From a virus, in IMG/VR virus record IMGVR_UViG_3300025889_000375, positions 1 to 36,636 of that record: 36,636 bases of DNA; one strand, written 5' to 3'. Each line of letters begins with the position of its first letter. The stretch's first letter is position 1. Below the pieces are notes generated by a model. It was not told the origin of the DNA. It did no database searches and saw only the letters and a list, made by a program, of their open reading frames with translations. A program made the position numbers and the translations under genes. Of the stretch, positions 14,478 through 36,636 are shown in pieces.

Positions 14478-14963
14478 ATGGCTGATTTAACTTATACAGG
14501 CACTGGAACCTTTAGGCGTGCAAACACAACCACGCTTGGTAAGGGTGACGCTGGTAGTGTCAAAAACTTCACCTCGGTGATTGAAATTGCCGCTGGTGCA
14601 ACGGTCGGTCAAACATGGAAGATTGGCCGGATTCCCTCTAACGCCCGACTCACAGGTTCTTGTGAGCTTTATTGGGACGATGTTAGTACAGCATCGCCTG
14701 ATTTTGACATCGGCCTTGCCTCAGTAAATGGCAATATCACTTCCGACCCCGACGCAGTAAACGACGGTCTGGACGCGGGTACTGCTTCTGCTGGTGTGAA
14801 GATGATTAAAACCATCGACAACATCGGCAAACAGGCTTGGGAATATGTCAACGGGCAAACAACAGATCCGGGCGGTGAGCTTGATCTGTATGTGAGCAAC
14901 ACTGTAGCAACGATAGACGACGGCGGCACTTTGGTTGCTGACGTTTATTACACGCTTGACTAA
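14478..14963 (+). CDS. Probable head decoration/structural protein
   Basis: A 161-residue beta-rich protein (MADLTYTGTGTFRRANTTTLGKGDAGSVKNFTSVIEIAAG... WKIGRIPSNARLTGSCELYWDDVST... FDIGLASVNG). The pattern, with IPSNARL and a stretch describing a DIGL strand, is common in phage proteins encoded just after the coat gene and thought to be part of the capsid surface. It has no enzymatic motif. Its 3' end overlaps the earliest possible start of the radical SAM gene by 29 bases. Confidence 0.7.
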   Translation: MADLTYTGTGTFRRANTTTLGKGDAGSVKNFTSVIEIAAGATVGQTWKIGRIPSNARLTGSCELYWDDVSTASPDFDIGLASVNGNITSDPDAVNDGLDAGTASAGVKMIKTIDNIGKQAWEYVNGQTTDPGGELDLYVSNTVATIDDGGTLVADVYYTLD

Positions 14964-15903
14964 CCTCGCAACAAGGATACGGGCCGTAGAGATACGGCCC
15001 CGACTTCTCCAACACCCAGAAGTTAGGTACGAAGTAACAGATAACTGCAACGCCAATTGCATTATGTGCCCTCGGGACAAGCACGACAGACCCCACGGCA
15101 TAATGAATCAGGAAGATTACGAAAGGTCGATTGACGAAGTCGTTAATTTGGGAGCGGAGCAAGTCACCCTCACAGGGTTTGGCGAGCCTTTGCTTGATAA
15201 GAATCTCGAAAAGAAAGTGGCCTACGCCAAATCCAAAGGGCTTAGGACTTATTTCATTACCAACGGCTCCCTATTAAGGGCCAGAGCGGAAAAGCTCGCA
15301 GAAAGCGGCTTGGACGAACTTAGAATCAGCTTTTACGGTATGTCCGCTTTGACATACGACGCTGTAATGCGCGGCCTCCATTTTGAAAAGACGATGGAGG
15401 GAATTCACAAGTTTTTAAGGGTGAGGAAGGGGACGAAAGTCCAACTGTCCTACCTTCAGTTTGACAACAACGAGCCCTATCAAGAGTTCTTGGATTACTG
15501 GGAGCCTCTTGTTGACTATGTTGAGGTTTGGAAGCCCCACAACTTCGGAGACGGTCGAGACTACCGACTCAGGGAGGGGGTGAAAAAGTCCTGTGGTAGA
15601 CCAAAATCAGGCCCGCTCCAGATTCAATGGGACGGCACGGTAATCCCTTGTTGTTATGACTACAACAACGAGATTGTTTTGGGGAACGCCTTCAGGACTC
15701 CGGTTATGAGCGTCCTTCACGGGAGTGCTTACAACGACCTCAGAGAAGCGCACGAGACCGGACAGTTTGAGAGATTCCCTTACTGTGATCAGTGCGACCA
15801 GCTTTTAGAACATTCTGATTCACTTCTTTACACGAACCGTCACAACCTCCCAAAGAGCGAGGCGGTGAAACTTTCCAACACAGACTTATCGAGGCTTTCT
15901 TGA
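14935..15903 (+). CDS. Radical SAM enzyme with SPASM domain
   Basis: The N-terminal core has CNANCIMC (C38, C42, C45 counted from the TTG at 14935), the CxxxCxxC motif for the [4Fe-4S]-SAM cluster, followed by LTGFGEP (SAM-binding), FITNG and ELRISFYG, as in radical SAM enzymes. The C-terminal part has SPASM-type auxiliary cluster cysteines: C220, C239, C240, then C284 and C287. Such enzymes modify peptides or small substrates by radical chemistry. No ATG is present near the start: TTG at 14935 or 14956 are the only conventional options, and a perfect hairpin lies at 14981-15000. The gene is in the head operon and coupled to the following gene. Confidence 0.88.
   Translation: MLTFITRLTNLATRIRAVEIRPRLLQHPEVRYEVTDNCNANCIMCPRDKHDRPHGIMNQEDYERSIDEVVNLGAEQVTLTGFGEPLLDKNLEKKVAYAKSKGLRTYFITNGSLLRARAEKLAESGLDELRISFYGMSALTYDAVMRGLHFEKTMEGIHKFLRVRKGTKVQLSYLQFDNNEPYQEFLDYWEPLVDYVEVWKPHNFGDGRDYRLREGVKKSCGRPKSGPLQIQWDGTVIPCCYDYNNEIVLGNAFRTPVMSVLHGSAYNDLREAHETGQFERFPYCDQCDQLLEHSDSLLYTNRHNLPKSEAVKLSNTDLSRLS
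14981..15000 (+). promoter_or_regulatory. Perfect hairpin with GAGA (GNRA) tetraloop at the radical SAM gene start
   Basis: GGGCCGTA (14981-14988), GAGA loop, TACGGCCC (14993-15000): an 8-bp perfect stem closed by a GNRA tetraloop, with no T run. It starts 18 bases after the decoration gene's stop and 4 bases after an AAGGA RBS-like motif (14973-14977). It may stabilise or control translation of the downstream gene. Confidence 0.6.
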
Positions 15904-16646
15904 AACGAATTGCAATCGTAGGCGGTACGAAATCGTGGGTAGACGCTCCTTATGAAGATAAATCATGGGAGATTTGGGTAATAGGAAATCAGGTTCAGCA
16001 ATACGACCACAAACGGGTGGATCTGATCTTTGAGATACACAATGACTTTTCCAACAGAGTGGAAGGGTACGCACAGTGGTTGGCTGATTTCAAATTCCCG
16101 ATGGTAGTGGGTGAAGGGTTTCCCTGTAAGAACGAATTAACCGAAGTGTTCGACTTCAATAAAGCGCGTGAAATGATGTCGGGGGATTACCTGACTTCAA
16201 CTCCGTCTTACATGGTCGCCTATGCGCTGTATTCCAGACCAGACCTTGAGGAAATAGGTTTCTGGGGCGTGGATATGGCAGTAGATGACACTGAGTATTT
16301 CTACGAGCAGCCCTGTGTCCAACGGTGGATAGGTTTCTGTAGAGGAAGGGGGATAAAAATCACTCTCCCTGATGGCTGTCCTTTGGGTGAGCCGCATTAC
16401 ATGGAAGGGGTGACTGCGAACAAACCAGAACCCCAACACCCGTATTCAGAGCAAGACTTTTTAGCAATGGCGAAACGCCACGCCGATAAGGTCGCACAGA
16501 TCGACGCGGAATTGTTCACCCTCCAATTAAAGAAAGCCGCACATGACGGGGCTCGTCAGTGCTATCAAAAACTCTCCCAAGTGGGCAGGGCTACCGATGC
16601 CGGGCAGCAGTTCGGTGAGTTAATTCAAACGATGAGGACTTTATGA
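15900..16646 (+). CDS. Rossmann-like protein paired with the radical SAM gene
   Basis: A 248-residue protein starting TTG (overlapping the radical SAM stop; RBS CGAGG). The N-terminus MKRIAIVGG is a Rossmann-type strand-loop, followed by WEIWVIGN and RVDLIFEIHN. Later, YLTSTPSYMVAYALYS, EIGFWGVDMA...EYFYEQPCVQRWIGFCRGRGIKITLP forms a conserved-looking core seen in some phage proteins with a nucleotide-sugar or pterin-type Rossmann fold. I would call it glycosyltransferase-like or DUF115-like only tentatively. The C-terminus is a helical tail. Coupling with the radical SAM gene suggests a shared pathway. Confidence 0.6.
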   Translation: MKRIAIVGGTKSWVDAPYEDKSWEIWVIGNQVQQYDHKRVDLIFEIHNDFSNRVEGYAQWLADFKFPMVVGEGFPCKNELTEVFDFNKAREMMSGDYLTSTPSYMVAYALYSRPDLEEIGFWGVDMAVDDTEYFYEQPCVQRWIGFCRGRGIKITLPDGCPLGEPHYMEGVTANKPEPQHPYSEQDFLAMAKRHADKVAQIDAELFTLQLKKAAHDGARQCYQKLSQVGRATDAGQQFGELIQTMRTL

Positions 16647-28092: not shown

Positions 28093-28246
28093 GGAGTGGC
28101 TTTTTCTGAGGCTTGTTGAAAGCCATTCGCTTCAAAGTATCTTCAAAACGATCTTTGTTGCCTTTGGAAGGATTGGCCTTCGCGAAGCCTTTTACATCAT
28201 CGGCTTCGCGGGCCTCCTCAAGGCTTAGGTATTTTCCGCGGGACAT
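28067..28246 (-). CDS. Small conserved hypothetical (KYLSLEEAR type)
   Basis: From the ATG at 28246, with a good RBS (AAGGAG), the product is MSRGKYLSLEEAREADDVKGFAKANPSKGNKDRFEDTLKRMA..., a pattern (SRGKYLSLEEAR...FAK.NPS.G....FE..LK.MA) seen in small bacterial and phage proteins of unknown role. The C-terminus is basic. An alternative start at 28276 lacks the fit. It overlaps the membrane protein gene by 29 bases and is probably co-transcribed with it. Confidence 0.7.
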   Translation of the reverse strand: MSRGKYLSLEEAREADDVKGFAKANPSKGNKDRFEDTLKRMAFNKPQKKPLPTERRTTA

Positions 28247-28850
28247 TGTAAATTTCTCCTTCCAAGAACTGCCCAAGCCTCAGTAGTATCTCTGAGGCAA
28301 CTTGAACGAATTTTTCATTATGGATGCCAACAGCCCTGGGGTCCATCAAATCCAGGCGTTCCAGCCATTGGCGCAAGTTCTCAGAGACCCTTTCGGCCTC
28401 TTTCAGGGTTTCTTCTCTCCAAGGGTTGTATCCTATCACGAACTCGAAAATATCAATTTGATTAGAAATTATCTTGTTCCTCAGCTCAATCCCTTCGCTC
28501 CTGAGTCTCCAGAGCTCACTGATTGCTGCTTGCCGCTTTTTCCTATTAAAAATTTCAAGCTCAAGGCCGTCGATAGTGGTGGCCCTATCTTCATCTAGAT
28601 GTTTTGCGGCCCTAAATAAGTTTACCGAGTAAACTACAATCCCGATAAGCGCCACAGCGCTTACAGTAACAGAAGCAACAAAGAGCTCATCCATCGCAAC
28701 TTCGATTTTCCCAAGCGCGACCAGAACACAAAGTACCAGCGTGAAAATCACTGAAGCTATGAATGCGCCCGCAATGCTCGGAAGACCCATCGGTGCGCGG
28801 GTCATTTCCATGGCAAGATCGCGTAGTTTCTTGTAGTAGCCTGTTTCCAT
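28218..28850 (-). CDS. Two-TM membrane protein, possible moron
   Basis: This 210-residue protein has two hydrophobic segments at about 26-46 (AGAFIASVIFTLVLCVLVALG) and 57-79 (LFVASVTVSAVALIGIVVYSV), then a long cytoplasmic, charged, helical domain (about 80-210: FNRKKRQAAISELWRLRSEGIELRNKIISNQ...). It is transcribed opposite to the late operon, next to attP, a place where lysogenic accessory genes are common. Shape and site are compatible with a superinfection-exclusion or envelope-altering protein, but I do not recognise a family. RBS is modest (TAGGA). Confidence 0.7.
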   Translation of the reverse strand: METGYYKKLRDLAMEMTRAPMGLPSIAGAFIASVIFTLVLCVLVALGKIEVAMDELFVASVTVSAVALIGIVVYSVNLFRAAKHLDEDRATTIDGLELEIFNRKKRQAAISELWRLRSEGIELRNKIISNQIDIFEFVIGYNPWREETLKEAERVSENLRQWLERLDLMDPRAVGIHNEKFVQVASEILLRLGQFLEGEIYNVPRKIPKP

Positions 28851-28891
28851 GACAGAATCCTACCCCATCCCGCCAAACAGGGGTTAGTCAT
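28802..28891 (-). CDS. Possible 29-residue leader ORF
   Basis: An ATG at 28891 with a strong RBS (AAGGAG, 7 bases before) opens a short frame MTNPCLAGWGRILSWKQATT... that ends at 28802 inside the membrane protein gene. It overlaps the start of that gene (28850) in another frame. It could be a regulatory leader peptide, or the RBS may be fortuitous. Only a short ORF and a good RBS support it. Confidence 0.3.
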   Translation of the reverse strand: MTNPCLAGWGRILSWKQATTRNYAILPWK

Positions 28892-29099
28892 GTCAAATAC
28901 TCCTTACTTGAGTCAAGGGGATAATGTCCTCTAAGTTAATCACTGTACCAATTCCAGCCTAAGCAGCCAGTCAACTTATCGCGTTTTAAGTCATTGATTG
29001 TATTGATCTGCATTGTGTCATTTTGCCTATTTTGCCATGGCACAATTCCTGCCTTTATCCCAGCAACCACGCGCCTTCCCAGTGATTATAACCGCCTTA

Positions 29100-29144
29100 C
29101 TGGGGGTCAAGTGGTCGTCGGTTCAAATCCGTCCGCTCCGACCA
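29100..29144 (+). other. attP: attP core: 3' half of a tRNA-Pro(GGG) gene
   Basis: The sequence folds as the 3' part of a tRNA: anticodon loop CTGGGGG (29100-29106, anticodon GGG), TCAAG for the 3' anticodon stem, variable loop TGGTC, T-arm GTCGG-TTCAAAT-CCGTC (one U-U mismatch), acceptor CGCTCCG, A73 and CCA (29142-29144). The matching 5' half is absent: the bases before 29100 (CCTTA) pair only in part. Acceptor G72, A73 and the GGG anticodon point to tRNA-Pro. Temperate phages carry such a piece so that the host tRNA is restored on integration. The adjacent integrase supports this. Confidence 0.8.
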
Positions 29145-29153
29145 TTACACGGG

Positions 29154-29171
29154 GGCTACAGGGAAGTAGCC
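29154..29171. repeat. Inverted repeat next to attP
   Basis: GGCTAC (29154-29159), 6-base spacer, GTAGCC (29166-29171), a perfect 6-bp inverted repeat just right of the tRNA-like core. It may be an integration-factor site or a weak hairpin at the end of the int gene. There is no T run. Confidence 0.45.
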
Positions 29172-29180
29172 TTAAACCCG

Positions 29181-29210
29181 TCTACTTAAATTCTACTTAT
29201 TTTCTACTTA
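29181..29210 (+). repeat. Three 11-bp-spaced TCTACTTA repeats, integrase arm-site candidates
   Basis: TCTACTTA occurs at 29181, 29192 and 29203, exactly one helical turn apart, between attP core and the end of int (the last copy overlaps the int stop). Evenly spaced direct repeats on one flank of a core are typical arm-type binding sites of lambda-like integrases. The remaining part of this gene-free stretch (28892-29099) shows no clear ORF or terminator; an opposite arm should lie there. Confidence 0.65.
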
Positions 29211-30278
29211 TCCAAGCTCCATGCTTGCCTTTGCCTGAATATATTCCGGCTCTCCAGAGTCCAGATAAATCTTCGTTGTGTCTGCTTTCGTGTGCCCGAG
29301 CAGCGCCTGAATTTCGCTTTCTGGCATTCCTCGTTCCTTGTATAGCCTCGCTCCAAGCGACCTGATTTCGTGAAAGGTCGGGGGGTCTGATTCCCAAAGG
29401 CCTGAATCTTCCACCGCCTTTGCGAAAAAACGAGTTAGCATGTCGGGCTTAATAGAAACCGAGCTGCCTTTTGCTGGGCTGCGACATATCAGGTTTCGAG
29501 AGCCCAAAGACAGGGCCGATATTCTGCACTCCATGAATAGTTTCCGTAATGAAGCGCCAATCCGGATTTCGATCAATGCTCCCGTCTTGCCTCTCACCGC
29601 TTTGATCGTTTCCGCGCTGGCCTTCGGTAGTTTCCATGAGCATATAACCTCTCTCGGTTGCAGGGTAATCAGAGCCAATCTCATCGCCCGCTTGAGCCAT
29701 GCGGGAGCCTCTTTTTCAATGGCGTAGAATTGCTCTAAATCCTTAATTCTATTGCGCTTTCTCTTCGTTTTCTTGGCTATCAGTATACCATCTGCGACGT
29801 TGAATTTCCTCATTCCTTTGCCGACTGCGAAGCGGTCAATCAGGCGCAAAAGAAAGGTGGCGTGACGCTTTCCGCCTCCCGAAAATTCGGCGTCTATCAG
29901 CTCGTTAAAAAAGCGAATATCAGTGGCGTTGTAGGTGGTCTGCCCGTACTTGCGGAACAGTTTGATCTTGCGTAGCTGCTCGGCTCGGTAACTGTCCGAC
30001 CAAGTTAATCCAGGGACATGCTCTTTAACATATCTATCCAGCACGTCGCCGAAGGTGGGCCAGCTTGGTTCGAGGATTGACCTGATGGCAAAGTCAGCCT
30101 TGGCAAAATGGGCGTTGATTGCTCTCGCCGTGGAATTGGCTTTTTCGAGGTCTTTGCCGAAAGTGTAGGCTTTCTTCAGCTTAGGGTGGACAAGAGACAG
30201 GTATCCGCGAGAGTCACGCTTTACGTGCGGCTCCAGATCGCGGTTTTTGGCGTACCTTCTTCTGCCCACTATTTGCAT
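29208..30278 (-). CDS. int: Lambda-type tyrosine integrase
   Basis: A 356-residue integrase. The N-terminal GRRRYAKNRDLEPHVKRDSRGYLSL... resembles the lambda Int arm-binding domain (GRRR...RDLPPN). The catalytic domain has K231 (VRGKTG), HEIR (H303, R306), LGHT (H329) and the nucleophile Y338 (KIYLD). At the first catalytic arginine box the sequence is TLQPREVI: families usually have R right after the Q (TGQR or TLQR), so here a Pro takes that place and R209 follows. Whether R209 substitutes is unknown. The enzyme would recombine attP with a tRNA-Pro gene. Overlaps xis by 10 bases. Confidence 0.9.
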   Translation of the reverse strand: MQIVGRRRYAKNRDLEPHVKRDSRGYLSLVHPKLKKAYTFGKDLEKANSTARAINAHFAKADFAIRSILEPSWPTFGDVLDRYVKEHVPGLTWSDSYRAEQLRKIKLFRKYGQTTYNATDIRFFNELIDAEFSGGGKRHATFLLRLIDRFAVGKGMRKFNVADGILIAKKTKRKRNRIKDLEQFYAIEKEAPAWLKRAMRLALITLQPREVICSWKLPKASAETIKAVRGKTGALIEIRIGASLRKLFMECRISALSLGSRNLICRSPAKGSSVSIKPDMLTRFFAKAVEDSGLWESDPPTFHEIRSLGARLYKERGMPESEIQALLGHTKADTTKIYLDSGEPEYIQAKASMELG

Positions 30279-30472
30279 CCCTCGGCCTCCAGAATCCTAT
30301 CAGCTATCGTATTGCCAGTGGAAGGGGCTTGCAGGTAGACGAACCACAATCCGCCCTCCTTGCATCCGGCTAGTTCGCCTCGCTCAATCCGAGAGATGAT
30401 CGTGCGGGGGTCGGGCCTTGACCCCTCGGCGTAGTTGCGCTCGATATACTTGCTGACTTTCTGCTTCATCAT
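30269..30472 (-). CDS. xis: Excisionase-like protein
   Basis: The 67-residue basic product MMKQKVSKYIERNYAEGSRPDPRTIISRIERGELAGCKEGGLWFVYL has the winged-helix pattern of small recombination directionality factors (turn, then G.L.G.K.GG.W.V). It is directly upstream of and overlapping int, the usual xis position. Xis bends the attachment DNA to favour excision. The start may be either of two adjacent ATGs. Confidence 0.8.
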   Translation of the reverse strand: MMKQKVSKYIERNYAEGSRPDPRTIISRIERGELAGCKEGGLWFVYLQAPSTGNTIADRILEAEGCK

Positions 30473-30487
30473 TCGCTCAGTTGGCTA

Positions 30488-30817
30488 TCAGCCTTCTCCC
30501 TTCGGTGGCTCTGGTAGGGGCGTCCAGTGAGTTATCGTTTCGCTCTCATCAACATCATCGACCAGCCATTCGTCCTCCCATATTGCCGTAACGCATGACC
30601 GAACCGATGTTTTATAGATGGTGGAAAGTAGATATTGGCCCCATGTTTCCGGCAATCTCTCATCCACGCTTATCCACACGCCCGCTGGTGCTGCGCGGGT
30701 TCCGTGAGCCAAATCAGCAGGTATTTCTCCCGCCGCTAATCCTGATGGCATAAATTTCCGCTTCCCGCTCTCGCTATTTGTCATCACAATCTCCATTGTC
30801 TGTGCCATGTCATTCAA
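30488..30817 (-). CDS. DUF551 domain protein
   Basis: The C-terminal half has the DUF551 pattern: WISVDERLPETWGQYLLST...VTAIWEDEWLVDD...ITHWTPLPEPP. Proteins with this domain are frequent in early regions of phages; their function is unknown. The 30-residue N-terminal part (MAQTMEIVMTNSESGKRKFMPSGLA) is not part of the domain. Starts at 30817 or 30808 both work; the first overlaps the peptidase stop by 8 bases. Confidence 0.85.
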   Translation of the reverse strand: MNDMAQTMEIVMTNSESGKRKFMPSGLAAGEIPADLAHGTRAAPAGVWISVDERLPETWGQYLLSTIYKTSVRSCVTAIWEDEWLVDDVDESETITHWTPLPEPPKGEG

Positions 30818-31985
30818 ATACCGGAATAGTCACGACCTTGGTGATTTCCGCTGTGTTGATATCACCAATTCCGATACCGCAGTAAATCTCACCGCCTGAA
30901 AACTGCTTCAAGTCCATCCACTGAACTAATCGAATGAAGTTGTCTTCTTGTAGCGTGTAGTCAGACACAACAGGCTCGTATCCAAATGACGCGGGCATCC
31001 ACTGGTCATAGCTGTTGTTAATGCTAGTAGCTGGCCCGACAAAGAACTCGGCAGGCATTGGCTGCTTCATGTACGGCTCACCGCCGATGATTCCACCGAC
31101 AAAGATTTTTACCTTCTTTCCAACGTCTTCAGCCTTTGGCGTGTAGCGAATCTCAATCCGTCGGGAGTTGATGAACTCAAGTTTGAATCCAGGCTTCTCG
31201 GGTATTGTGTACGCCTTGAATCTTCGGGTAATCGTGCTTTCAAAGAACGGCTCAGAAACAATCCAGTAGGGCAGGTAGCAAATCCCACCCTGACCCCATT
31301 CAGTTCCCCAACTGTTGAGGACAATGAAACAGTTTCTTGCATGATCGAATCCGATAAAGGTCATCAGGTGTCCACCGATGGGTGGGTTGGTTGCGCTGAC
31401 TTTCTGGTAATCATGGAACACCATCGGCCCCTTGAGTCCGTGGAGACTGCTCGTGACCTGCATGGCGAAGGTTGGTAAAAATCCTTCCTGAATCGCTGAC
31501 CTGATGTTGTGTATTCGCTGGTCAGGATCTTCGTTCAACACCATTGGCTTAACGATAAACTCATAGCGATCTATCCGGTTTTCAAAAGCCTCAATTTCAA
31601 GACTCTCAGGTGGTACTGTGAACTCCTTGTCCAAGTCATAAGGATAGGATTCCTCAGTAGGAAACCCGAGCTTGCGACCGACCTTATAAGCGTTTCTGGG
31701 GCTGACTCCTGACTCGAACATCCTATTTTCGTAGAGCTTGGTCATCACGTAGGGGTACATTCTGGAGTATTCGGTATTGTCCCCGTTCAATTTCCCAAGA
31801 TGCTCGACTTGATTGGTGATCCCATTCCACACACAAGTCCCTGCGCTGAGTTGATTCGGCACACTGAGGACTTCATCTGATCGGTTCAGGTACGGAACCA
31901 ACTGATCTGGAGTAAACGGCGAGACATAGGGAATGTCCCGAAGGTCGGCAACCGAAGGTACAACGCCTGCTATTTCGTAGTTCAT
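30810..31985 (-). CDS. Papain-like (C1A) cysteine peptidase
   Basis: This 391-residue protein has the papain catalytic signature: Q45 with the nucleophile region NQLSAGTCVWNGI (C51), GGHLMTFIGFD (H206) and NCFIVLNSWGTEWGQGGICYLPY (N224). The start MNYEIAGVVPSVADLRDIPY resembles the short N-terminal approach of bacterial C1A enzymes, without a pro-domain. A C-terminal region of about 130 residues (255-391) is beta-rich and could bind a partner. There is no signal peptide, so it acts in the cytoplasm or in the virion. It sits in the leftward early operon between the nuclease and DUF551. The target is unknown. Confidence 0.85.
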   Translation of the reverse strand: MNYEIAGVVPSVADLRDIPYVSPFTPDQLVPYLNRSDEVLSVPNQLSAGTCVWNGITNQVEHLGKLNGDNTEYSRMYPYVMTKLYENRMFESGVSPRNAYKVGRKLGFPTEESYPYDLDKEFTVPPESLEIEAFENRIDRYEFIVKPMVLNEDPDQRIHNIRSAIQEGFLPTFAMQVTSSLHGLKGPMVFHDYQKVSATNPPIGGHLMTFIGFDHARNCFIVLNSWGTEWGQGGICYLPYWIVSEPFFESTITRRFKAYTIPEKPGFKLEFINSRRIEIRYTPKAEDVGKKVKIFVGGIIGGEPYMKQPMPAEFFVGPATSINNSYDQWMPASFGYEPVVSDYTLQEDNFIRLVQWMDLKQFSGGEIYCGIGIGDINTAEITKVVTIPVFE

Positions 31986-32009
31986 GTAATTACCTATTCG
32001 TCAGGGGTG

Positions 32010-32579
32010 CTAGGCTGCTTGCTTTCGAGCAGGAAGTGACTTGAAGAACACCGCCAGTTCCTGTGGATCAACCTGAAAGCAAGCCCACTTCGATTTCATG
32101 GATACCGGAACCGATACAGTATGTAACTTCCGAACCAACTCCCCAGGGATCAGAAAAACCTTCTCCACTTCTTGGTTTTCGCAAAGTCCGACACAGACAA
32201 AAAAGTCAGCATCTTGGCTCTGTTTTTTAAAGCTGAAACTCCATGCCCGAGAATCGAACCGTTTGGACGTCTTTTTCCTTCTGCTCGTCTTGACGTCCAC
32301 GCCATACCCAAGGACATCAAAATCAATCTTTGGCTGAAACTTCACTTTGTTAAGATCCACCGCGAACGGAACCATCCGACCGAACAGCAATTCACCATGC
32401 GCGGCCAGCTTGTCTTTTGGGCTTCCGTATGTAGACTTGTCGCCAGTTACCGGGACGCCCTTTTCCTTGAGGTACACGTAAACCGTTTGCCAAGGTATTC
32501 CGACTTCATCAGCCACGTTGTGCAGATGCTTGTGGCGTGAGTAGCTTTCCGCGCACTGTTCTTTGATGTCCATATTCAT
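32010..32579 (-). CDS. HTH + PD-(D/E)XK-like nuclease
   Basis: From the ATG at 32579 (overlapping the SSB stop as TGATG), residues about 5-40 form an HTH (CAESYSRHKHLHNVADEVGIPWQTVYVYLKE). Then E63 precedes FQPKIDFDVLGYGVDVKTSRRKK, where D86/D88 and D95-V-K97 make a PD-(D/E)XK-type metal site. The end (DADFFVCVGLCE...VFLIPGELVRKL) continues the nuclease-fold strands. Such proteins include phage resolvases and restriction-like endonucleases. With RecT and SSB next to it, it may process recombination intermediates. Confidence 0.75.
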   Translation of the reverse strand: MNMDIKEQCAESYSRHKHLHNVADEVGIPWQTVYVYLKEKGVPVTGDKSTYGSPKDKLAAHGELLFGRMVPFAVDLNKVKFQPKIDFDVLGYGVDVKTSRRKKTSKRFDSRAWSFSFKKQSQDADFFVCVGLCENQEVEKVFLIPGELVRKLHTVSVPVSMKSKWACFQVDPQELAVFFKSLPARKQAA

Positions 32580-33004
32580 CAAAATGGCACCCCCTCAAAA
32601 TCATCGAATGCCGGAGCTTGACTTTTCCCCTGCGGCGCTGACTGACTGTTTCCTGTTTCTGAACCGGAAGCGCGGGAGTCGAGCATTTGCATGGTGTTTG
32701 CAATGATCTTGGTCGAGTATTTCGTAACCCCGTCCTTCTCGTATTTGTCGGTTTTCAGCTTGCCCTCGATGTAGAGCTTTGAACCTTTCTTGACATACTT
32801 CTCAACGACCTCCGCCAGCTTCCCGAAGATGGTTATGTTGTGCCACTCGGTATGGCTCTGCTGTTCACCAGTGTTCTTGTCCCTCCACTGCTCGCTGGTG
32901 GCTATTGAAAAACTTGCCACCGCGTTGCCGTTGGGCATATACCTAATGGTAGGATCGTCGCCCAGATTTCCAATCAAAATTACTTTATTAATTCCGTTGC
33001 TCAT
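32579..33004 (-). CDS. ssb: Single-stranded DNA-binding protein
   Basis: The OB fold is typical: [84 protein letters not shown] Gln/Ser-rich linker leads to an acidic-hydrophobic tip DDFEGVPF, close to the DDDIPF tip of bacterial SSB that recruits repair proteins. It covers ssDNA in phage recombination with RecT. A strong RBS (AGGAG) sits inside the HNH gene end. Confidence 0.95.
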
Positions 33005-33527
33005 GTCTTAACTCCTGATTTGATTTTGGGCCAGCCCCGTGATGTCCTGGCGTCCCGGGTCTAAGATTGTTCAGCGACGACGCATTGAGCCTGTTCTTTG
33101 CCGAGCAGTCGCGCATGTTTTCTTTTTGCGATCCTATAAATATATGGGATGGGTTCACGCATTTCGGGTTGTCGCATTTATGACAGGCGTTCATTCCTTT
33201 GGGTATCTGCCCGTTAAACAACTCCCAGCCAAGGCGATGAGCAAAGACTGGTGAAGCGAAAACACCGCGAGACAATTTCCCATACCCGTGGTTATCGAGA
33301 GTGCCTTTCCACTCCCAGCACTCATTGCCGCCCTTTCGGTCGACATAACTCCAGAACCGAATATGCAAAGGGCTTTTTGTCTCCCTTGATTTGTTGTTGC
33401 ATGAGATAGAGCAGTATTGCCTCGAATCCCATTGAGAATATGAATCCCTTGGATTCTTGTAGAACTCCCTGCCGCAACATTCGCAATATTTCGAAAACTG
33501 GCTTGGTTGTGATGCGCCCAATCCCAT
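32988..33527 (-). CDS. Free-standing HNH endonuclease
   Basis: The N-terminus has a treble-clef-like finger (CECCGREFY...YCSISC). The HNH_3-type domain runs from [19 protein letters not shown] through [46 protein letters not shown]. This is the form of many mobile homing endonucleases in phages. It is placed between recT and ssb and joined to recT by a TAATG overlap. It may be a mobile element that settled in the recombination operon, or a domesticated nuclease. Function beyond DNA cutting is not evident. Confidence 0.88.
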
Positions 33528-34657
33528 TACGCCGCTACCTCACTCAAACACTCATCAATGAAATGGCGCACATCGTCTTCGGTGTTCGCCTTGATGTAGT
33601 CAATGGCTTCCTGCGGCATATCCGTTAGTAGTTCTTTAACTGCCAGATCGTCGCCGGTTTCTGCTGCGTCTTCCATTGCAAGCTGAATGTCGGTGAGCTT
33701 GTGCCTGCCATCACTTTCCAGCTTGGCGGCAATCGCTTTGAACTTAGTGATTGAGCCTTTCTCGAATGAGTTGTGAAGCGCCGTCCTTACTCCCTCATCC
33801 AGCGTCGTTAGAAAACAATACATACAGAGCGCATCGCTGTTTGATATGCACTTGTCGTAATAGGCTTTCTGCTCTGCCGTGTAGCTGTTCATGGTCGGAG
33901 TGGTTAGTAGGGGTTCAAAGCCTTCATTCTCGTTCGACATATGGATAGCTTCTTCCATGCGACCAATTTGATAATTCTTGGGCCACGTTTTGAACGCCTG
34001 CCGGATTACCGCCTTCTTGGACATTTCTTCTTCGTCGGTTAGCCAAGTCCCCGCACCGTTTCCACCCTCCTTGATTGACTTCTTCCACGTCTCTGACCTG
34101 CCACGAATAGACTCCAGCTTTTCCTTGTTCATTATCGTGGTGAGATAATCCCCGCCAGCTTTGGCAACGCAGTAGACTCCAACAATCGGCCCCCTGGTCT
34201 CGTCGGTGGCGAACGCATCATAAATGTGAGTCGGCTTGAGTCCTACGCCGTTGTCCGTGAATGTGTCAGACTTTCTGACGACCCGCGCCTGAATCCATTC
34301 AATGGAGCCGGTGTTGGTGGCAATGTTGCAAAGCCCCATGTAGCTGGGCTCTAGGAATATCCGCGACTCCCACTTGTTGCCGTTCTTCACGGTACGGGGA
34401 ATCAGATAAGCCTCCTTGCTCGCCGGATTCAAACTCAATCCGATAGCCGCGACATTCACAACAGCATTCACAAGAGAGTGCGGGGATTCGCTGGCGACCT
34501 TCATCAAGTATTCGCTGTTGCGAAGTATCTGGATGGCAAAGTCTGCCTCCTTGTCAAACATCATTCCCGATGGTTTGATCTTGTTGAACTTAGGCTCCGC
34601 GAAACGGATTACCTCAGTTAAACTTTTCGGTGCTTGCTCGCTCGCTAATTCGGTCAT
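33527..34657 (-). CDS. recT: RecT-family single-strand annealing protein
   Basis: The core residues 1-250 match RecT: SLTEVIRFAEPKFNKIKP, LVNAVVNVAAIGLSLNPASKEAYLIPR, FLEPSYMGLCNIA, KAGGDYLTTIMNKEKLESIRGRS, EEEMSKKAVIRQAFKTWPK. RecT anneals complementary single strands and promotes recombination. The protein is 376 residues, about 100 longer than E. coli RecT (269); residues about 255-376 (YTAEQKAYYDKCISNSDALCMYCFLTTL...) are a separate helical extension. There is no RecE-type exonuclease next to it. RBS GGGAGA. Confidence 0.92.
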   Translation of the reverse strand: MTELASEQAPKSLTEVIRFAEPKFNKIKPSGMMFDKEADFAIQILRNSEYLMKVASESPHSLVNAVVNVAAIGLSLNPASKEAYLIPRTVKNGNKWESRIFLEPSYMGLCNIATNTGSIEWIQARVVRKSDTFTDNGVGLKPTHIYDAFATDETRGPIVGVYCVAKAGGDYLTTIMNKEKLESIRGRSETWKKSIKEGGNGAGTWLTDEEEMSKKAVIRQAFKTWPKNYQIGRMEEAIHMSNENEGFEPLLTTPTMNSYTAEQKAYYDKCISNSDALCMYCFLTTLDEGVRTALHNSFEKGSITKFKAIAAKLESDGRHKLTDIQLAMEDAAETGDDLAVKELLTDMPQEAIDYIKANTEDDVRHFIDECLSEVAA

Positions 34658-34658
34658 A

Positions 34659-34811
34659 TCAATCTCCCAATAAGTCCTGCAATTTAACCGGCTGTTCCGG
34701 CTGAAATATCTCTCGAAACTTGTCCTCGTCCAGAATCTGCGCCATTACTTGCTCGTCATTCATCATCTTCTTTGCTGTGCGGTCTATTGCTTGTTTGTCT
34801 GGGTAGGTCAT
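34659..34811 (-). CDS. 50-residue early protein upstream of recT
   Basis: An ORF starting ATG at 34811 and overlapping the previous stop (ATGA) gives MTYPDKQAIDRTAKKMMNDE...LQDLLGD. It ends one base beyond the recT start codon, so it is tightly packed in the early operon. The short acidic, helical product has no known motif. Its coding status rests on packing and overlaps. Confidence 0.6.
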   Translation of the reverse strand: MTYPDKQAIDRTAKKMMNDEQVMAQILDEDKFREIFQPEQPVKLQDLLGD

Positions 34812-35086
34812 GGCTTGCCCTCCGCTTTGGCAATTGCTGCTCTTACAGCCTCGCCGACGTTATTGGTTTTGACTTCAGGGTGGTATAATCCGCAATGCTC
34901 GTAGCAAAGCTTTAAGGCTTCGTACATATCCTTACTTGCCGCGAATAAGTTGGCGTTCGCCTCGCCGTGAACAATTTCAGCAACACACTCGCCAAATTTG
35001 CTCCAGTGGATTTCGTAAATATCGTCTTGTCCATACAGCGGCCCACGACAGACTGCCTTCCACTCGCCCTCTGTAAACTCGCTCAT
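34808..35086 (-). CDS. Small early phage protein (ANxxLxAAxxxMYEAL type)
   Basis: The 92-residue product starts with TEGEWKAVCRGPLYGQ and includes ANANLFAASKDMYEALKLCYEHC and AVRAAIAKAEGKP. This pattern (TEG.W.. ... AN..L.AAS.DMYEAL ... AI.KAEG) is frequent in early regions of phages; the function is unknown. It overlaps both neighbours by 4 bases. Confidence 0.75.
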   Translation of the reverse strand: MSEFTEGEWKAVCRGPLYGQDDIYEIHWSKFGECVAEIVHGEANANLFAASKDMYEALKLCYEHCGLYHPEVKTNNVGEAVRAAIAKAEGKP

Positions 35087-35442
35087 AACGGCTCCCTCGA
35101 TAGTCTGGACAGCTTCGCCATTTCTGCTGAAATGCTTTTATGATCGTCCATGAATCGACTGTCAGGATCGCTGTCGTCGGTTCCGTCCATCCATTCTGTT
35201 GGCTGATTCTCAGATAGGTATTTGTGAATAAGGCCGATCACAGTTTTCCCGACTCTCAGGCAAGCGTCTTGATGTGACTTACAAGGCTTGACGAGTGAAT
35301 CCGCAATCTCCGCATCTTCAGCGATAGACTTCATAACCTCGTCCGGTGCGTCACTCAGTATTTCCCGAATCAAAGAGGGGACTGTGCAATACCCGCTCAT
35401 CATTCCAATTCGTGCTGCTTCTTGTGCTTCTGAATAGCTCAT
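35083..35442 (-). CDS. 119-residue hypothetical early protein
   Basis: The product begins MSYSEAQEAARIGMMSGYCTVPSLIREILSDAPDEVMK and continues with IADSLVKPCKSHQDACLRVGKTVIGLIHKYLSENQP and an acidic tail DGTDDSDPDSRFMDDHKSI. It is helical, with three Cys. I do not recognise it. Overlaps both the downstream gene and the upstream micropeptide by ATGA. Confidence 0.6.
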   Translation of the reverse strand: MSYSEAQEAARIGMMSGYCTVPSLIREILSDAPDEVMKSIAEDAEIADSLVKPCKSHQDACLRVGKTVIGLIHKYLSENQPTEWMDGTDDSDPDSRFMDDHKSISAEMAKLSRLSREPL

Positions 35443-35525
35443 ATCAATAACCCCGCGATTAACAAAACATAGATAAGGCCGATAAAGCAGATGCCGCCTA
35501 CTATGTCCTCGATTAGTTGTTTCAT
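35439..35525 (-). CDS. 28-residue membrane micropeptide
   Basis: The ORF starts ATG at 35525 after GGGAGAGAGAAG and encodes MKQLIEDIVGGICFIGLIYV followed by LLIAGLLI: a charged N-terminus of seven residues and one membrane span. Its stop overlaps the next start as ATGA. Such tiny single-span proteins are easily missed; in phages they include Kil-like or envelope-targeting factors, though nothing here identifies its role. Confidence 0.6.
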   Translation of the reverse strand: MKQLIEDIVGGICFIGLIYVLLIAGLLI

Positions 35526-35601
35526 CTTCTCTCTCCCGTTGAATCCGCGATGACTCTGAAAAAATGGGGCCATACTTCAGCCCCTAGCTCCTAAGGGTTC
35601 G

Positions 35602-35961
35602 TTAGGCGCGCATTACGTGCGTGTGATTTGCCAGCGCCGCGATATGGCGGACAGTTTCAAATGCCTCGCCGTGGTGATGGCCCGAAACAATGAATGAATA
35701 GATAGGGTCTGATGCGTCTCCGCCAATCGCGCTGAAGTGGACATTTGCGCCCCACTTGTTGAGATAGATTGGCATGACAGAGTTGGACTCGATCTCTGTC
35801 TCCATCTGGTCAATCTGCTTTACTCCGAACGCCTTAATGAGCAAGCCGCGCTTCACTCCGATTCGCTGCGTGTAGGCTTCGAGTGCGCCCTGTGTGTCAG
35901 GGTCGTGCTGAACGAAAAAATCGCATCCCATCTTCATTTCCTCTCTGGTTGGTTTGCCCAT
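35602..35961 (-). CDS. 119-residue hypothetical, first gene of the leftward operon
   Basis: The ATG at 35961 gives MGKPTREEMKMGCDFFVQHDPDTQGALEAYTQRIGVKRGLLIKAFGVKQIDQMETEIES..., with a GTG just before it as an alternative. The later part contains ISYSFIVSGHHHGEAF-like spacing (FIVSGHHHGEAFETVRHIAALANH), three consecutive histidines near residue 99 that might bind metal. I do not recognise a family. It is the first gene after the leftward promoter PL, so early expression is expected. Confidence 0.6.
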   Translation of the reverse strand: MGKPTREEMKMGCDFFVQHDPDTQGALEAYTQRIGVKRGLLIKAFGVKQIDQMETEIESNSVMPIYLNKWGANVHFSAIGGDASDPIYSFIVSGHHHGEAFETVRHIAALANHTHVMRA

Positions 35962-35974
35962 CACACTTATGCTT

Positions 35975-35993
35975 TGTAGGACTTTCCCCTACA
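35975..35993 (-). promoter_or_regulatory. Leader hairpin, possible boxB/nut-like site
   Basis: On the minus strand TGTAGG (35993-35988), a 7-base loop, CCTACA (35980-35975): a 6-bp perfect stem in the leader of the leftward transcript, 14 bases ahead of its first gene. In lambda a boxB hairpin lies here for N antitermination. No boxA is clear, so the link is weak. Confidence 0.35.
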
Positions 35994-36029
35994 TTCGTGG
36001 TGTGGTAGGTTTGCTGAATCTTGGGCGGC

Positions 36030-36091
36030 GATAGCAACCCATGTGCAAACGATAGCAAAAGCTATTAGACAATGCAATAGCAAATGCTATT
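36030..36091. promoter_or_regulatory. Repressor operator cluster (OL-like)
   Basis: Two palindromic sites, GATAGC-AAAA-GCTATT (36051-36066) and AATAGC-AAAT-GCTATT (36076-36091), centres 25 bases apart, with a third imperfect site starting GATAGC at 36030. The consensus AATAGC-N4-GCTATT is the 16-bp dyad expected for a CI/Cro-type protein. They overlap both promoters described here. Confidence 0.75.
36049..36077 (-). promoter_or_regulatory. Leftward early promoter (PL-like)
   Basis: On the minus strand TTGCAT (36077-36072), 17 bases, TATCGT (36054-36049), reading into the long leftward operon. The -10 overlaps the operator at 36051-36066 and the -35 overlaps the one at 36076-36091, so a repressor bound there would block it. 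Confidence 0.55.
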
Positions 36092-36093
36092 AA
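36066..36093 (+). promoter_or_regulatory. Rightward promoter opposed to PL
   Basis: TAGACA (36066-36071), 16 bases, TATTAA (36088-36093), 28 bases before the ATG at 36121. It overlaps the same operators as PL, so one repressor could switch both. Confidence 0.45.
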
Positions 36094-36120
36094 ATTTTGA
36101 AATAGTTGGAAGGGGGCGCT

Positions 36121-36336
36121 ATGTCTGTGAAAAACATACGAGCGGATGGTATTCGGGCTATTGGGTTTGTGGCGTTGCTATGTAATGGCGATGGGTCGGT
36201 TGTATCTGAGGTTGCTGATTGCGCCGATACAGCCATATATGGCCTTATGGCTGACGAACTGAGTCGGGTTGCGGCGTTGTATAGGGGCGCTGCTTCAGAG
36301 CCTCTAGCGGCCCCTCAGAAGCTCTCAGGAGGCTAG
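36121..36336 (+). CDS. 71-residue hypothetical in the immunity region
   Basis: From the ATG at 36121 (RBS AAGGGGG) the product is MSVKNIRADGIRAIGFVALLCNGDGSVVSEVADCADTAIYGLMADELSRVAALYRG..., with a hydrophobic IRAIGFVALL segment and an Ala/Leu-rich helix. It is not recognised and has no HTH. It lies opposite the CI-like gene, at the location of rex-type or PL-antisense genes in lambda; it may be expressed in lysogens. Its 3' end overlaps the repressor stop by 4 bases. Confidence 0.55.
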   Translation: MSVKNIRADGIRAIGFVALLCNGDGSVVSEVADCADTAIYGLMADELSRVAALYRGAASEPLAAPQKLSGG

Positions 36337-36636
36337 TCGGACTTCTTCTTGCTTTGGGACATGGTGCGTAGGAGCCCGACAAAATGGGCTTTCTGGTCTT
36401 TATTGAGGAAATCTGCCTCATTGAGCGCCTTTTCGATCTCCTGAAAGGCCGATCCGCTGGTCGTGGCTTCGGTCTGGTCGAGACTGCCGCGCCTGAGCCC
36501 TATGGCTGACTCCAGGTTCCGAGCAGACTTTTCGCCAATAGATCGGTGTCCGCCAAGCATCTGGCGCAGATAAGTAGCGTCCAGCCCATGCTCTCGGGCA
36601 AATTCCGCTGTATTACCGTGGACTTCTGGCCGGATT
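36333..36636 (-). CDS. CI-like repressor, partial (5' end outside window)
   Basis: The frame is open to the end of the window, so the N-terminal start is missing. The visible part has an HTH: NTAEFAREHGLDATYLRQMLGGHRSIGEKSARNLESAIGLRRGSLDQ (turn at HGLDA, recognition region YLRQMLGGHRSIG), as in short XRE/CI-type regulators, followed by a 50-residue charged tail (EIEKALNEADFLNKDQKAHFVGLLRTM). There is no C-terminal LexA/CI-type protease domain. It may be a short phage repressor. It reads toward the operators at 36030-36091, as cI does toward OL in lambda. Confidence 0.75.
   Translation of the reverse strand, partial: IRPEVHGNTAEFAREHGLDATYLRQMLGGHRSIGEKSARNLESAIGLRRGSLDQTEATTSGSAFQEIEKALNEADFLNKDQKAHFVGLLRTMSQSKKKSD

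Follow-up and report, generated by a model that had tools for sequence, protein, structure and literature searches.

Xylellain-type C1A cysteine peptidases are known in Caudoviricetes, and enzymes of this type have been acquired from bacteria by Mimiviridae, Myoviridae and Siphoviridae (PMC10380794). The jumbo phage XacN1 likewise lists a C1 peptidase, ORF382 (PMC5852040). In our literature search we found no paper giving any phage xylellain-type C1A peptidase a substrate. A second point of reference is the exo-xis region of phage lambda, whose genes are very early and non-essential, and affect host replication, the cell cycle and the choice between lysis and lysogeny; the DUF551 domain is found in a variant (variant 2) of Ea22, a pro-lysogenic protein (PMC10834534). 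Here we describe a phage genome in which these two subjects meet, in that a C1A peptidase with an additional C-terminal domain is encoded among recombination and integration genes. All positions refer to the complete stretch of DNA analysed (IMG/VR record IMGVR_UViG_3300025889_000375, 36,636 nucleotides), hereafter the window.

The recT-int operon and its phage

The window is a 36.6 kb temperate-type phage, with terminase, portal, major head and head-closure genes on the plus strand. These late genes run opposite to a single co-directional run of minus-strand genes, in the order recT, HNH, ssb, phrog_13389 nuclease-like, peptidase, DUF551, xis-like, int. The run begins with a RecT-type annealing protein (33527-34657), an HNH endonuclease (32988-33527) and a single-strand DNA-binding protein (32579-33004). 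The next gene (32010-32582) belongs to phrog_13389, and its product has an HTH-like N-terminus, a D..DxK motif (D87, D96 and K98 invariant) and an invariant KKQ; judged by these motifs, it is likely a PD-(D/E)XK nuclease, found after ssb in several recombination cassettes. The peptidase gene follows after a gap of 24 bp, and is followed in turn by a DUF551 gene (30488-30817, E=1.7e-10, starting at ATG 30784 or TTG 30817), a small gene of phrog_33468 (30269-30472, 67 aa) that its position and sequence style suggest to be excisionase-like, and a tyrosine integrase (29208-30278). The preliminary description had placed the peptidase in an early or recombination-type operon between a nuclease-like gene and a DUF551 gene, which is the arrangement seen here.

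No terminator-like site was found on the minus strand from 35566 to 28754, and a scan of 28200-36636 identified no promoter for the minus-strand operon. Only two sigma-70-like sites lie in that interval, against a chance expectation of 7.8 (sd 3.0), and neither is positioned to drive the operon. Beside the integrase gene, the sequence GTCGGTTCAAATCCGTCCGCTCCGACCA at 29110-29145 resembles a tRNA 3' end and is a probable, putative attP core of tRNA type; ARAGORN recovers no whole tRNA there.

Positions 1853-28203 match a separate 26 kb IMG/VR record at 99.96-99.98% identity and represent the same phage, which gives independent support to the assembly over this interval; the matching record ends before the recT-int operon. 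Within the head module, a plus-strand gene at 14935-15903 encodes a radical SAM/SPASM protein (PF04055, E=1.2e-20; PF13186, E=4.4e-13), which is unusual for a phage of such type, and is directly followed on the same strand by a gene (15900-16646) whose 248 aa product matches nothing in Pfam or NCBIfam. A minus-strand gene at 28218-28850, converging on the late genes, encodes a 210 aa protein with a hydrophobic N-terminal segment and no family match above the cut-off. Another minus-strand gene, at 36333-36635, encodes a repressor-like protein.

A xylellain-type catalytic domain with an intact active site

The peptidase is encoded by an uninterrupted open reading frame of 391 codons at 30810-31985, running on the minus strand from the ATG at 31985 to the stop at 30810; the plus strand of this interval is closed by many stops. 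The frame had been reported with the same limits in the preliminary description, which left the strand unstated. With a GC content of 48.6% against 48.3-51.8% in its neighbours, the gene gives no compositional signal of recent acquisition, and this idea was dropped.

The gene product matches the Pfam family Peptidase_C1 (PF00112) with E=1.8e-6 and 28.7 bits, above the curated gathering cut-off of 20.7, and its best sequence match in PDB is xylellain (3ois, E=1.8e-9). The catalytic part comprises residues 1-256 (31218-31985), and carries near its N-terminus a conserved DxRD segment (residues 10-35), as in the xylellain type. Residues Q45, C51, H206 and N224 occur in the expected order and are invariant in 34 of 34 viral homologues (alignment A3), where N224 belonged to the pattern with which the homologues were searched and Q45, C51 and H206 did not. 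A profile built from the 34 homologues retrieves 3ois with E=4.3e-87, far ahead of any other chain. On the strength of these matches we consider it almost certain that the protein is a C1A peptidase whose active site is intact, as the preliminary description had proposed together with the complete Q/C/H/N signature.

We built a structure model with the 34-sequence alignment, and obtained a mean pLDDT of 79.6, with residues 11-180 mostly between 84 and 96. The top Foldseek match of this model in PDB is again 3ois (E=3e-16, TM-score 0.77 by target length), followed by procathepsins, Lpg2622 and papain (1ppn, E=1.6e-9), and the catalytic part is accordingly modelled as a papain fold. Since 3ois ranks best both by profile and by structure, assignment of the enzyme to the short bacterial xylellain type of C1A peptidases is well supported.

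The peptidase shows no I29 propeptide match and no signal peptide, hydrophobic N-terminus or transmembrane stretch (maximum 19-residue hydropathy 0.95), and no peptidoglycan-binding or glycoside hydrolase domain was recognised in it. PADLOC profiles gave no match at E<=0.01, and a defence-system label was rejected on that basis.

A C-terminal domain common to two proteins

Residues 257-391 (30810-31217) form a separate domain, modelled as an Ig-like beta-sandwich. This part is beta-rich in both models that we examined, as anticipated in the preliminary description, and the confidence for residues 257-391 is moderate; in the model made from the single sequence, only the C-terminal domain folds and the catalytic domain is poor. 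Searched alone, the domain has no Pfam, PDB-sequence or phage match, and no credible plasmid match. Foldseek and VIA-align comparisons of the single-sequence model return generic Ig-like and CBM-like matches with a best Z of 7.2, below the level at which the fold-comparison tool advises trust; this fold arrangement is a common one, and we did not accept a family assignment from such matches. Neither 3ois nor any of the remaining 32 viral homologues in A3 has the approximately 130 C-terminal residues, which are carried by two sequences only, the window peptidase and a protein that we call P0010.

P0010 (locus L016 of phage record G005, IMGVR_UViG_3300037780_000102, 34.6 kb) is the sole end-to-end match found, with 45% identity over residues 8-389 of the window peptidase (E=2e-121); the identity is higher in the catalytic part (49%) than in the C-terminal part (39%). 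All four catalytic residues are kept, and P0010 also has no hydrophobic leader. The only cysteine common to the two proteins is the catalytic one, which, together with the missing leader, fits a reducing cytoplasm and agrees with the cytoplasmic character ascribed to the enzyme beforehand.

The phage carrying P0010 is unrelated to the window phage. Its peptidase gene is the last in a tail-gene operon, behind tail-fibre-like genes, and is accompanied neither by an adjoining DUF551 gene nor by the recombination/ssb/phrog_13389 cassette; no integrase was recognised when the record was read by eye. The 98 bp upstream of the P0010 ATG contain GTGACA-18-TATGAT with an extended -10 (TG), followed by TAAGGAGG. 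This promoter-like site matches the consensus at 10 of 12 positions, lies 28 bp before the ATG, is accompanied by AAGGAGG, and is the only such site in the 2.35 kb scanned. In dinucleotide shuffles of the gap on the same strand, a 10/12 site occurs with a frequency of 0.006, and with the TG with a frequency of 0.0005. Judged by this consensus match, the putative promoter makes P0010 look like an independently expressed accessory gene.

Occurrence among phages

Searches of 50,697 phage records yielded 5 matching records with the window peptidase and 18 with P0010, and relatives are encoded in at least 152 IMG/VR stretches. Apart from P0010, the viral relatives mostly have a single domain and a length of 240-300 aa. 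The preliminary description had called such enzymes rare in phages; this holds for the five matching phage records, but not in view of the IMG/VR stretches and of the enzymes published from Caudoviricetes (PMC10380794). The catalytic domain alone is a minority but recurrent bacterial gift to phages. The two-domain form is rare in the collections scanned, because neither single-protein pattern scans of viral and genome contigs with the window peptidase, which found nothing, nor a scan with the two-sequence alignment, which found nothing beyond L016, added a further member; pattern scans of these contig collections reach close relatives only. While the enzyme type was already known in phages, the two-domain form and the location in a presumed early operon appear to be new. 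Among the PHROG families shown beside 50 other viral C1 loci, many are head, tail and packaging families; as this tally had no background set, it was not weighed as evidence.

The peptidase gene is optional cargo

In order to see what occupies the position of the peptidase in related phages, we read six related recombination/ssb/phrog_13389 cassettes (L002-L005 and L129-L130). All six are without the peptidase, the place after phrog_13389 being taken by small genes of other, unrelated kinds, and therefore the peptidase gene is optional cargo; several of these records are fragments, and the absence holds for the stretches read. In G011, the nearest near-complete structural kin of the window phage, the DUF551, xis and int genes are present and the peptidase is absent. 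A check on co-occurrence with DUF551 had been proposed, and it revealed no functional pair: G011 has DUF551 without the peptidase and G005 the peptidase without a neighbouring DUF551 gene, so that a functional pairing was rejected. After its tail genes, G011 encodes a C93 transglutaminase-like cysteine peptidase (L123:12314-12685; PF06035, E=1.7e-12). Lying between recombination genes and xis-int, and variable among kin, the site of the peptidase gene corresponds to the exo-xis accessory region of lambda.

Possible role of the peptidase

We propose that the product is an accessory endopeptidase, expressed early and acting in the cytoplasm, and that its C-terminal domain selects the protein to be cut, of the host or of the phage; we give this reading about an even chance of being correct. 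In the active site, C51 would act as the nucleophile and H206 as the base, with N224 orienting the histidine and Q45 contributing to the oxyanion hole. The enzyme would be co-expressed with the recombination and integration genes, and its C-terminal beta-sandwich would dock it onto a particular protein; docking is the most likely role of this domain, but with two sequences carrying it, the role is proposed by analogy. At an early stage of infection or upon induction, the enzyme might then make a limited cut in a protein of the host, or in a regulatory protein of the phage, and so tune the host cell, influence the choice between lysis and lysogeny, or disarm a defence. Catalytic activity and a target on the host side are inferred here, as is the early timing, and the targets suggested beforehand, host defence proteins or the repressor, are guesses. 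It counts against our reading that the scan identified no promoter for the window operon. A more specific version, counter-defence, in which a particular immune or regulatory protein of the host is recognised by the beta-sandwich and cleaved by the papain domain within minutes of infection, seems to us unlikely; if true, it would mean that phages encode a targeted papain-type protease, made of a bacterial C1A enzyme and a swappable targeting domain and carried as exo-xis-like cargo.

Several observations count against an early accessory enzyme and would suit a late virion or lysis protein, that is, a tail- or envelope-associated peptidase serving entry, fibre processing or release, for which the place in an early operon would be incidental. 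P0010 ends a tail-gene operon behind tail-fibre-like genes, and other phage C1 domains are found in lysis cassettes, as with Lilbeanie gp40 between lysins and a holin, or fused to cell-wall-degrading domains, as in an Alicyclobacillus phage protein with an Rv2525c glycoside hydrolase-like domain and a peptidoglycan-binding domain. In addition, the BFVD matches include several with an endolysin, muramidase or peptidoglycan-binding annotation, and the C-terminal beta-sandwich has weak CBM- or lectin-like neighbours. However, the window gene is part of the recT-int operon, on the other strand from the late genes, and its product has neither a signal peptide nor a peptidoglycan-binding domain; P0010 has a host-type promoter-like site of its own; and the lytic enzymes reported from XacN1 virions do not include ORF382 (PMC5852040). 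We regard a late function as rather improbable.

Two further explanations remain closer to the temperate life cycle. Sporadic cargo in a temperate phage could be a moron, a lysogenic-conversion gene that the prophage expresses to the benefit of the lysogen, perhaps in defence against competing phages, and the promoter-like site of P0010 is of the kind that morons have; but no separate promoter is seen in the window, where the surrounding operon is expected to be silent in a lysogen, and we consider this explanation quite unlikely. We doubt even more that the peptidase acts on its own phage, cutting the repressor or some other lysogeny protein and thereby shifting the balance between lysis and lysogeny. 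The gene does adjoin DUF551, a domain found in a variant of the pro-lysogenic Ea22, in an exo-xis-like region, and an integrase gene and a putative attP of tRNA type are present in the window phage, but the P0010 record is without a recognised integrase, kin with xis-int have no peptidase, and no cleavage site or partner is known.

It is of interest that the same two-domain enzyme, with its tetrad intact, has been kept by two unrelated phages, in one within an exo-xis-like operon and in the other behind its own promoter-like site. This retention makes a catalytic mutant informative on a protease role in infected cells.

Comparison with known systems

With xylellain of Xylella fastidiosa (3ois), the window peptidase shares the papain fold, the Q/C/H/N residues, the DxRD segment and the lack of a recognisable I29 propeptide, but at 391 aa it breaks the norm of the type, a single domain of about 250-290 aa, by its extra C-terminal domain. 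The xylellain-type enzymes of phages and Mimiviridae (PMC10380794) are of the same type, whereas the present one has two domains and lies in an integrase/recombination operon. The endolysin of Alicyclobacillus phage MMB025 has the PF00112 domain in common, but fused to cell-wall domains, and Gordonia phage Lilbeanie gp40, in a lysis context, shows weak tblastn similarity around the His and Asn motifs; these two proteins have 25-39% identity to the window peptidase, over parts only. In lambda, the exo-xis genes ea22, orf61, orf63 and orf60a are likewise optional and lie between the recombination genes and xis-int, and the peptidase gene of the window has a DUF551 neighbour, a domain present in Ea22 variant 2 of that region. 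No peptidase is described there (PMC10834534), and the early transcription proposed for the window operon follows from the analogy with lambda. The peptidase described here adds an enzyme to the poorly understood cargo of the exo-xis region.
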